This document shows positions 19,619 through 22,310 of a stretch of DNA of 64,000 nucleotides, piece after piece. Where the stretch lies: positions 1-64,000 of the forward strand of contig JACUUL010000002.1 in the NCBI GenBank assembly GCA_014859345.1, read 5' to 3'. Origin of the DNA: Thermoleophilia bacterium. GTDB lineage: Bacteria; Actinomycetota; Thermoleophilia; BMS3ABIN01. The stretch's first letter is position 1, and every line of letters starts with the position of its first letter. The notes under the pieces were generated by a model. The model did no database searches. It was not told the DNA's origin and was given only the letters and a program-made list of their open reading frames with translations. The translations under genes and the position numbers were made by a program.

Positions 19619-19861
19619 CTATAATCTATCGTAATTTACGGCATTTTCGTAATCGGGGAATTCTCTTTTTTCCCGGGGCGCCATACCCTGATAAGCTGGA
19701 TTTTTTTCCCACTCCGGCAGGCGGCCGAGGATTAGCCGAAGAAGCAGGGCGCGGCAGCCCGTCCGGGTGTTCCGGAGGCCGCGGAAGCGCTTAAAAATGG
19801 CTTGACGCTTTTGCGGACGCCATGACCACACATCCCGTCCCCTGACCCGGGAACGGGTCAT
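19619..19861 (-). CDS. Hypothetical small basic protein downstream of mnmA
   Basis: An 80-residue, Arg/Lys-rich frame whose ATG overlaps the mnmA stop (ATGA) and whose stop lies 2 bases before a good terminator. It therefore fills the whole distal part of the transcript. No domain or known family is recognised; the N-terminal two thirds are very basic and the C-terminal third (PEWEKNPAYQ onward) is mixed. The coupled start and terminator position favour a real gene; the composition, which could be read from any GC-rich frame, argues against. Low confidence. Confidence 0.35.
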   Translation of the reverse strand: MTRSRVRGRDVWSWRPQKRQAIFKRFRGLRNTRTGCRALLLRLILGRLPEWEKNPAYQGMAPREKREFPDYENAVNYDRL

Positions 19862-21327
19862 TTTTCGGAGACGCGGATGACGCCTCCGGCCGCCACGGTG
19901 TCGCCGGCATAAATCACCGCCGACTGACCGGGAGCGACGCCGTAGACCGCTTCGCTGAGAATCAGCCTCAATCTGCCCTCGGCAGCTGGTGAAACCTGCC
20001 CTTTCACGGGAACAGAGTTGTAGCGCAGCTGCACGGAATAACTTTCTGCCTCATCCAGGGAAGAAAAAAAGTTGACCTCGTCGATCTCGATCATGCTCAC
20101 CGCCAGCCGGTCGCGGCCGCCGGCGATCACAGTATTGCTTTCCGGGTCGATATCCAGCACGTACAGAGGTTCGGGTGCGCTGATGCCCAGTCCCCGCCGC
20201 TGGCCGATTGTATAGCCGATGAAGCCGCTGTGGACTCCCAGGCGGTTTCCGGCTTCGTCCACTATGTCCCCCTCTCCCGGAAGCCCACCGACCCGGTCGC
20301 CCAGGAAGCGGCGGTGATCATTATCGGGGATGAAACAGACCTCCTGGCTCTCTTCCCGGGCTTGGGTAGGCAGGGACGCCTCGCGGGCCAGGCGCCGCGT
20401 TTCCTGCTTGGTCATGCCCCCGAGGGGAAACTCCAGGTTCTTAAGCAGCCGCTGCTCTATATCCCAGAGCACGTAAGACTGGTCCTTCGCGGAATCCACG
20501 CCTCTAAGCAGCAAAGGCGTGCTGCCGCGCCTTGCCAGCCTCGCATAATGTCCGGTTGCCACCCGGCTTGCGCCCAGGATTTCAGCCAGACGAGCCAGCT
20601 CAGGGAACCGGAAGCTGCCGTTGCAGCGGGTGCATGGATTTGGAGTGCGCCCGGCCTGGTATTCCCTGACAAAGTCATCGACCACTACATTCTCGAATTC
20701 TTCCCGCAGGTCGATGGTGAGATGCGGCAGGCCTTGAGAGTGGCAGACAGCGCGGGCATCCCGTATCGCCTGGGGGGAGCAGCAACCCGCCGAGTCCGGC
20801 GCTGCGCAGGCGGGATCGCTCCACAAGCGCATGGTCACGCCGATCACCCGCCGGCCGGACCGGTGCTCGAGCAGACAGGCTACCGAGCTGTCCACACCGC
20901 CGCTCATGGCCACCAGCACCGAGTCTTCATCTTTTTGGCCGGCATGAGGGAAGTTGCCGTTCCGGAGGGCATCTTCAAGGGCGGCATGCAACGCTTCGAT
21001 GGCGATTCCGGCAGCTGTGGAAAGCTTGTCCCGAACGTCCGGCAGCGTAGTTGACGCAAGTCCGGCCTCTACCCGGGACGGCGCTACCGCCGCGGCCTCC
21101 CGCCAACTGAGGCCCTCTATCATGCTGGAAAGATAACTGCCGGTTGCGACGGCAGCCCCTGAACCGGCCGCCTGAAACCGCGCTTTGCCGATTCTTTCCT
21201 CATCGAAGCGGACAAAGAGCCTGATTAAGGCGCCGCAGTCCATCGAGCCGGCCTCCCCGGTGGCATGAGCGCCGGAGAGTTCTTCAGCATTACGCGGATT
21301 GTTGAGATGTTCCAGAAAAGGGTCCAT
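19858..21327 (-). CDS. mnmA: tRNA-specific 2-thiouridylase MnmA with an N-terminal degenerate IscU/NifU-like domain
   Basis: The 489-residue protein joins two parts. Residues 1 to ~125 resemble the IscU/NifU iron-sulfur scaffold (FLEHLNNPRNAEEL, SMDCGALIRL, GKARFQAAGSGAAVATGS). Only the first of the three scaffold cysteines remains (Cys31); the positions of the other two are Ser56 and Ser103. From ~135 the protein is MnmA: PP-loop AMSGGVDSSVA, the CCSPQAIRDARAVC block, Cys232 and Cys235 in NPCTRC, and Cys331 in SQEVCFIPD. Cys235 and Cys331 match the catalytic pair of E. coli MnmA. The enzyme makes 2-thiouridine at position 34 of Lys/Glu/Gln tRNAs. ATG 21327 has GGGAG upstream; ATG 21348 is an alternative. 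No cysteine desulfurase gene is adjacent. Confidence 0.92.
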   Translation of the reverse strand: MDPFLEHLNNPRNAEELSGAHATGEAGSMDCGALIRLFVRFDEERIGKARFQAAGSGAAVATGSYLSSMIEGLSWREAAAVAPSRVEAGLASTTLPDVRDKLSTAAGIAIEALHAALEDALRNGNFPHAGQKDEDSVLVAMSGGVDSSVACLLEHRSGRRVIGVTMRLWSDPACAAPDSAGCCSPQAIRDARAVCHSQGLPHLTIDLREEFENVVVDDFVREYQAGRTPNPCTRCNGSFRFPELARLAEILGASRVATGHYARLARRGSTPLLLRGVDSAKDQSYVLWDIEQRLLKNLEFPLGGMTKQETRRLAREASLPTQAREESQEVCFIPDNDHRRFLGDRVGGLPGEGDIVDEAGNRLGVHSGFIGYTIGQRRGLGISAPEPLYVLDIDPESNTVIAGGRDRLAVSMIEIDEVNFFSSLDEAESYSVQLRYNSVPVKGQVSPAAEGRLRLILSEAVYGVAPGQSAVIYAGDTVAAGGVIRVSEK

Positions 21328-21437
21328 AAAAACTGCTCCCGGGCCCATGTCACTCAGTACCCGGAATGCTTTATTTCATCGCTTGGAGCGAAAGAAGCGG
21401 GAATGCGGCGGGTTACCAGAATCGCATACGAGGCGGA

Positions 21438-21944
21438 TCAGGCGGTCGCCTCGACAACACCCTGTTCTATGGAGTTTTCATCAACATAACCTGTCCAGGC
21501 GCGCACCACCTGCCCATCGCTGTTGATGCAAACAACCGTGGGGGTTGCATTCACTGAGAGCAGGTCGGCCAGATCACCGTAACTCTGCGTATCGGCGGCA
21601 AGGAAGGTATAAAAATCAACCTGCCCGTCGTACCTGTTCTCCACTGACCCGAAATATGAGCGAACCTGGGTGTCCGCGTAGGGAGACGCCATGTAAAAAA
21701 GAATCACCACCGGACGGTTTGATTCCAGTGACTGCCTGATATCGGCCGGTGTCTGTTCCGTAGGAGTAACCTTCTTGCCGATAAGCTCCTCTACCTGGCC
21801 GACTTCCCCGGCCGGCATCCTCGTGCGACTGGGAACAGTGCCTGTCCCGACCTCCGCCGCTTCCTCTTCACCGCATCCCGCAAATAAAAAAACCACCAGC
21901 ATCATAGCGAGCGTTGCGGCGGTCAGCTTAATGAATGTTCTCAT
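21438..21944 (-). CDS. Lipoprotein with a thioredoxin-like fold lacking the CXXC motif
   Basis: The 168-residue protein begins with a lipoprotein signal (MRTFIKLTAATL, hydrophobic core, then LFAGCG with the lipobox Cys at residue 24). A Thr/Pro/Glu linker leads to a thioredoxin-like domain: PVVILFYMASPYADTQ where thioredoxins have the CxxC helix, and SVNATPTVVCI with the cis-Pro loop. The active site reads Ala-Ser-Pro-Tyr, so no disulfide exchange chemistry is expected; the single Cys after the cis-Pro is the only other one. It is presumably anchored on the outer face of the membrane and may act as a binding or chaperone domain. ATG 21944 matches the signal peptide; the upstream GTG at 21974 does not. 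Confidence 0.7.
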   Translation of the reverse strand: MRTFIKLTAATLAMMLVVFLFAGCGEEEAAEVGTGTVPSRTRMPAGEVGQVEELIGKKVTPTEQTPADIRQSLESNRPVVILFYMASPYADTQVRSYFGSVENRYDGQVDFYTFLAADTQSYGDLADLLSVNATPTVVCINSDGQVVRAWTGYVDENSIEQGVVEATA

Positions 21945-22310
21945 CTTCCCATTCTCCGTCAAAGAAAGCCCCACCCTGCCGTGTCTGTCTGTTTATTGAA
22001 CCTGCTCCAGCAGGTGGGTGCCCGCTTCCCAGCTACCCTTGGACAGTTGGGAAAGTCCAGGCTCCCGAATACAATGTGTTGGCTCAATAAAGTCGCAGAT
22101 CACGCACAAAGTCGAGCTTTCACCGATATAGTAGCACTGCTATTTGTTTTCGGCAACATCTCCCAAAAACCTTTATCCGGATTGCAACCGTATTCTGTAC
22201 TACGAAACCTTATACCGCCTGCTTATGCAGTTATTTGAGTTTCCTGGAAACTTTTTTTCAAAAACCCTCCGGGGCCATCCATCCGGAAAAAAAGATTTTT
22301 AACCGCAGCC
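21945..22310. other. Intergenic region between the lipoprotein gene and aspS
   Basis: This 366-base stretch is clearly more AT-rich than its surroundings. It should hold the promoter of the lipoprotein gene and the 3' end of the aspS transcript. A plus-strand frame at 21981-22238 has no recognisable protein features and is not called. The only structure I can support is the inverted repeat at 22251-22294. Confidence 0.6.
22251..22294 (-). terminator. Inverted repeat, probable aspS terminator
   Basis: A 9-bp outer arm (CTTTTTTTC with GAAAAAAAG) encloses a second inner stem (TCCGG/CCGGA). Read on the minus strand, the inner stem is followed by GGGTTTTTG, as in an intrinsic terminator placed 17 bases after the aspS stop. 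The symmetry would allow it to act in both directions. Confidence 0.5.

Follow-up and report, generated by a model that had tools for sequence, protein, structure and literature searches.

The folds, the operon and the SufU-type sulfur transfer that bear on the locus described here are already known. Sulfur transfer by SufU needs zinc. The metal site of human ISCU2 is made up of five ligands (Cys69, Asp71, Cys95, His137, and Cys138), of which Cys138 is the acceptor of sulfur (PMC11021402). Cys41 of B. subtilis SufU corresponds to Cys69 of ISCU2 (PMC11021402), and Cys40 of M. tuberculosis SufU takes sulfur from SufS (PMC10216065). A CC-CxxC-C pattern has been described for MnmA (PMC11784392), and enzymes of the CxxC-C type have been reported with a [4Fe-4S] cluster (PMC8584467, PMC11784392), but the cluster dependence of E. 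coli MnmA is disputed (PMC11784392). In B. subtilis, the desulfurase YrvO transfers sulfur directly to MnmA (PMC11784392). Clostridium perfringens possesses an iscR-iscS-iscU-trmU operon (cpe1786-1783) with the same gene order as the nifS-nifU-mnmA clusters discussed below (PMC2940859). In open-access full texts, we found no published description of an IscU/NifU-MnmA fusion, of a stepwise loss of its ligands, or of one-cysteine clades. Such proteins bear on the question of how sulfur is supplied to MnmA in bacteria that lack a Tus relay, and whether an Fe-S cluster takes part.

The window, a stretch of 64,000 nucleotides from a Thermoleophilia bacterium, contains on its minus strand a gene (positions 19858-21327; ATG at 21327, stop codon at 19858-19860) that encodes a single protein of 489 residues in which an IscU/NifU-N fold is followed by a complete MnmA. 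Since a GGGAG motif is present about 9 nt upstream of the ATG at 21327, this start is to be preferred over the longer reading from the ATG at 21348. The AlphaFold2 model of the protein was built from 76 aligned sequences and reached a mean pLDDT of 95.2 and a pTM of 0.93; a second family member gave a pTM of 0.92. These two pTM values, which come from alignments with few fused sequences, point to a fixed packing of both domains in the predicted structures. Our analysis confirms that the IscU/NifU-N-MnmA fusion is genuine and well above chance. Just upstream of the fused gene (21438-21974, minus strand) lies a gene for a thioredoxin-fold protein with a lipoprotein-like N-terminal signal; it carries MASPY at the site where a CxxC motif is expected.

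The MnmA part comprises residues 134-489 (19861-20928, minus strand, as are all features described in the following). Residues 137-484 score 369.7 bits with the curated MnmA model NF001138 (cut-off 284), and residues 133-489 of the structural model match MnmA structures with a Z of up to 42.1 (2hma). The hallmarks of the enzyme are all present: the translation contains the PP-loop SGGVDS at residues 142-147 (20887-20904), and the alignment places the CxxC motif at Cys232-x-x-Cys235 (NPCTRC; 20623-20634) and the catalytic Cys, the equivalent of E. coli Cys199, at Cys331 (20335-20337). An initial sequence-only reading of this DNA had listed these three cysteines; they are indeed in place, and Cys182-Cys183 (20779-20784) have to be added as the CC of the CC-CxxC-C pattern (PMC11784392), to which the MnmA part would thus belong as judged by its motif.

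The same reading had assigned the first approximately 125 residues to the IscU/NifU N-terminal fold, and profile searches and structural comparison agree with this assignment. Residues 1-125 (20953-21327) contain a Pfam NifU_N match (residues 4-112; E-value 5.7e-18; score 65.7 bits, cut-off 22), and this part of the model superimposes onto A. fulgidus IscU (4eb5_C) with a VIA-align Z of 20.4 and an rmsd of 2.0; matches to SufU structures are weaker (Z about 14). Scores with the iscU/NifU equivalog models (43.1 of the required 192.4, 63.1 of 187.9, and 55.1 of 273.3 bits) and with the SufU model TIGR01994 (31.9 of 92.5 bits) stay below the cut-offs. The domain and its fold are those of a scaffold, but the set of three ligand cysteines, Asp, and His is reduced to its first member, Cys31, which is also the sole Cys within the N-domain. 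Cys31 (codon TGC; 21235-21237) aligns with SufU Cys41 and ISCU2 Cys69 (PMC10216065, PMC11021402). Ala33 (21229-21231) replaces the Asp ligand (IscU Asp39), Ser56 (21160-21162) the second ligand Cys, and Thr104-Ala105 (21013-21018; aligned by the flanking conserved helix) the His-Cys pair that provides the fourth and fifth ligands. The sequence-only reading had seen one remaining ligand Cys and serines in place of the other two. This holds for Cys31 and for Ser56 but not for Ser103, which is neither conserved nor located at the position of the third ligand Cys; the latter aligns with Ala105, and the His position is taken by Thr104. A SufU-type zinc site is absent from the N-domain, the Asp and the other ligands being gone. 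Since SufU Cys41 equals ISCU2 Cys69, the SufU acceptor aligns with Cys31, which by position would therefore represent the sulfur-accepting Cys of the B. subtilis protein.

To survey the fusion, 60 related genomes were searched. In all 19 genomes of the family to which the window belongs (f1), the fusion forms one open frame; G007 aligns as two segments separated by a long insertion, and the G008 copy is truncated by the end of its contig. Throughout the 19 f1 proteins Cys31 is invariant (codon mostly TGC, TGT in three), the Asp ligand has become Ala or Val, and the His-Cys pair is gone; the second Cys is replaced by Ser in 18 relatives, as in Ser56 of the window protein, and by Ala in one. The invariant residues of the N-domain surround the old active site (G24, A26, G27, C31, G32, A53, and G55). 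For the four closest f1 pairs, dN/dS values amount to 0.14-0.32 in the N-domain and 0.15-0.21 in MnmA; the N-domain of f1 is under purifying selection. In a phylogeny calculated from the MnmA portion only, f1 comes out as one clade (SH-aLRT 99), and all 19 f1 genomes possess the one-cysteine version. The identical state in each of these genomes, with an invariant Cys31, dismisses the idea of one damaged copy. Separate translation of the N-domain was rejected as well, given the single uninterrupted frame in 19/19 f1 genomes and no start at the junction that is backed by a ribosome-binding site; the candidate starts GTG137, GTG139, and ATG141 lie within the first MnmA strand, and no ribosome-binding motif was seen for them.

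The fusion is of ancient origin and wide distribution, occurring in many Actinomycetota. An early idea that it is confined to the class Thermoleophilia was overturned by the fused genes of the families f16, f23, and f55, which belong to other parts of the same phylum. nifS, nifU, and mnmA occur as separate neighbours in f3, a family of the same class, and in f29; separate adjacent nifS-nifU-mnmA genes are also found in Bacillota, Dehalococcoidia, Deltaproteobacteria, Elusimicrobia, and other named genomes. In f8 and f23, the desulfurase gene nifS directly precedes the fused gene. The fusion is derived from such a nifS-nifU-mnmA operon. In two f23 genomes (G423 and G459), the nifU-like gene and mnmA are still unfused, and the last Cys is already missing from the nifU-like product; hence, in f23 this loss is seen without fusion.

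How far the scaffold has been reduced differs between the fused families. For reference, 25 of 29 stand-alone NifU-type genes carry all five ligands by a simple motif test, the remaining four differing at one element or escaping the motif. In the counts that follow, sequences and not independent events are given. Fused proteins of f2, f6, f7, f9, and f10 (83 sequences) possess Cys-Asp-Cys-His without the last Cys, and those of f8, f11, and part of f5 (17 sequences) possess Cys-Asp-Cys-Cys without the His, which is the SufU set. Each of the 100 fused Thermoleophilia domains that keep Cys-Asp-Cys thus retains either the His or the last Cys, but not both. Four f5 proteins contain two Cys and no Asp, and f1 (19) and f12 (4) have the first Cys only. 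Judged from these sequences, the ligands appear to have been lost stepwise. Since f12 stands apart from f1 on the MnmA tree, where it groups with f4, f8, and f11, reduction to Cys31 alone occurred in two separate lineages. With the exception of f4, the first Cys is present in 127/127 fused domains of Thermoleophilia. In f4, a shortened domain free of ligand Cys is fused to MnmA in the 7/7 genomes read (L031, L033-L035, L039, L044, L047), and dN/dS of this remnant was 0.15-0.49 in the pairs computed. The fused domain of f16, outside the class (L312-L317, L320), is highly diverged: G620 has lost the first Cys and kept the second, G533 has no ligand Cys, and both are still fused. Universal retention of Cys31 is consequently true within the class and false in f16.

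We also inspected the genomes for other sulfur carriers and desulfurases. The window genome and f1 keep a five-ligand NifU beside NifS, and general cluster assembly is thus independent of the fusion. In the window genome, a TusA-family domain is located directly ahead of nifS and nifU (G000:C30:11829-13761; L062, L073), and this neighbourhood recurs in several f1 relatives. Genomes of f1 encode 4-6 proteins of the TusA family and, in most cases, two of the DsrC family (e.g., G000:C86:9067-9384 and G000:C88:24259-24543), numbers that are unusual among the actinobacterial relatives tested and suggest a dissimilatory sulfur metabolism. With both families at hand, f1 could supply MnmA by a route like that of E. 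coli. No match to the TusA and DsrC families was found in the f7, f8, f11, and f12 genomes tested, which fits a relay in cis better, but several of these genomes are incomplete. The window genome encodes three desulfurases. One of them, L074, was considered as a dedicated partner of MnmA and dropped, because most f1 relatives that possess it carry it as the terminal portion of a molybdopterin oxidoreductase. In these relatives (L280-L283, L286, L289, L295), an IscS/NifS-type desulfurase forms the C-terminal part of frames of 1150-1310 residues whose N-terminal part is the molybdopterin oxidoreductase (Pfam Molybdopterin, Molydop_binding, Aminotran_5); in the window genome (C88, L074/L278), the desulfurase is a separate frame of 398 residues at a contig start. 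Possibly, the long frames serve the sulfuration of the molybdenum cofactor in cis.

What, then, might the fused domain do? As the sequence-only reading had proposed, it is probably no cluster builder, because four of the five ligands are lost. The alternative offered there, docking or a sulfur relay, is supported by the evolutionary record of the family; it is in keeping with descent from a nifS-nifU-mnmA operon and with the alignment of Cys31 to the acceptor Cys of SufU. The best explanation in our analysis, to which we would give an even chance, is that the domain acts in cis both as a dock for the desulfurase and as a persulfide relay through Cys31. A former NifU/IscU scaffold from the operon would now serve MnmA only: its N-domain would dock a type I cysteine desulfurase, Cys31 would receive the persulfide as the aligned SufU Cys does, and MnmA, to which the domain is fused, would take the sulfur over at its CxxC-C active site and use it for the synthesis of s2U34. 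Once tied to MnmA, the domain would have stopped building clusters and kept docking together with the SufU-type acceptor step. Since the metal site is gone in f1, the transfer would be metal-free there. The ligand equivalent to the acceptor Cys138 of ISCU2 is absent from f1, f12, and all Cys-Asp-Cys-His families. The following speaks against the relay: f16 G620 and G533 and the f4 half-domain stay fused without Cys31; TusA and DsrC offer another possible route to MnmA in f1; and SufU needs zinc for its transfer, yet the window domain has no metal site. More tentative, and in our view somewhat doubtful, is the wider proposal that a metal-free one-cysteine persulfide relay within MnmA replaced Tus-type carriers in at least two independent lineages through stepwise ligand loss.

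The persistence of f16 G533 and of the f4 half-domain without any ligand Cys would be accounted for if the domain only held the desulfurase by MnmA, the persulfide passing directly to the MnmA cysteines, as B. subtilis YrvO does (PMC11784392), and Cys31 serving structure or the interface; Cys31 is, however, invariant in 127/127 fused domains of the class while the other ligands vary, and we consider docking alone unlikely. The CC-CxxC-C composition of the MnmA part, a type reported as [4Fe-4S] (PMC8584467, PMC11784392), together with the position of nifU beside mnmA, which could mean cluster supply, might instead be taken to indicate that the N-domain builds or delivers this cluster in cis with Cys31 as a transient ligand. 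We regard such loading as improbable, since one of five ligands is left, 0/100 of the fused Cys-Asp-Cys domains of the class have all five, and a separate NifU with all five ligands is encoded next to NifS in the window genome. Finally, the domain could be a structural or tRNA-binding leftover, with sulfur reaching MnmA of f1 via TusA and a DsrC/TusE-like protein. In favour of this, f1 has 4-6 TusA-family genes and in most cases two DsrC-family genes, while most other fused families have few or none, and f1 combines these carriers with the most severe loss of ligands; yet f12 has one Cys and no TusA/DsrC match in 4/4 genomes (52-88% complete), and the invariant residues cluster around the old active site. 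We consider a leftover the least probable of these explanations.

The graded states found in nature, from a complete scaffold down to a module with one cysteine, fused to the enzyme that it would serve, provide ready-made constructs of one protein with five, four, two, one, and no ligands. This series would show which of the IscU cysteines suffices for sulfur transfer once cluster building is irrelevant.

Set beside the known systems, the N-domain shares with IscU/NifU (A. fulgidus IscU 4eb5, E. coli IscU, and human ISCU2) the fold over its whole length (Z 18-20), the order of elements, the first ligand Cys, and the GxxG-C-G surroundings, but it lacks the Asp, the second Cys, the His, and the third Cys, is fused to MnmA, and has a linker ahead of the last helix that is variable in length among relatives. 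The acceptor Cys41/Cys40 of SufU from B. subtilis and M. tuberculosis aligns with Cys31, and the SufU ligand set Cys-Asp-Cys-Cys is that of f8, f11, f55, and part of f5; the window protein has no metal ligands left, and SufU is a separate protein serving SufS. MnmA of the CC-CxxC-C type, as in T. thermophilus, is alike in all catalytic motifs and in its three domains, and the IscU-like domain is an N-terminal addition here. The iscR-iscS-iscU-trmU operon of C. perfringens likely reflects the ancestral arrangement, with separate genes that are fused and degenerate in the protein described here. The E. coli TusA-TusBCD-TusE chain carries sulfur from IscS to MnmA, the same function that we propose for the fused domain, but does so with separate proteins of unrelated folds.
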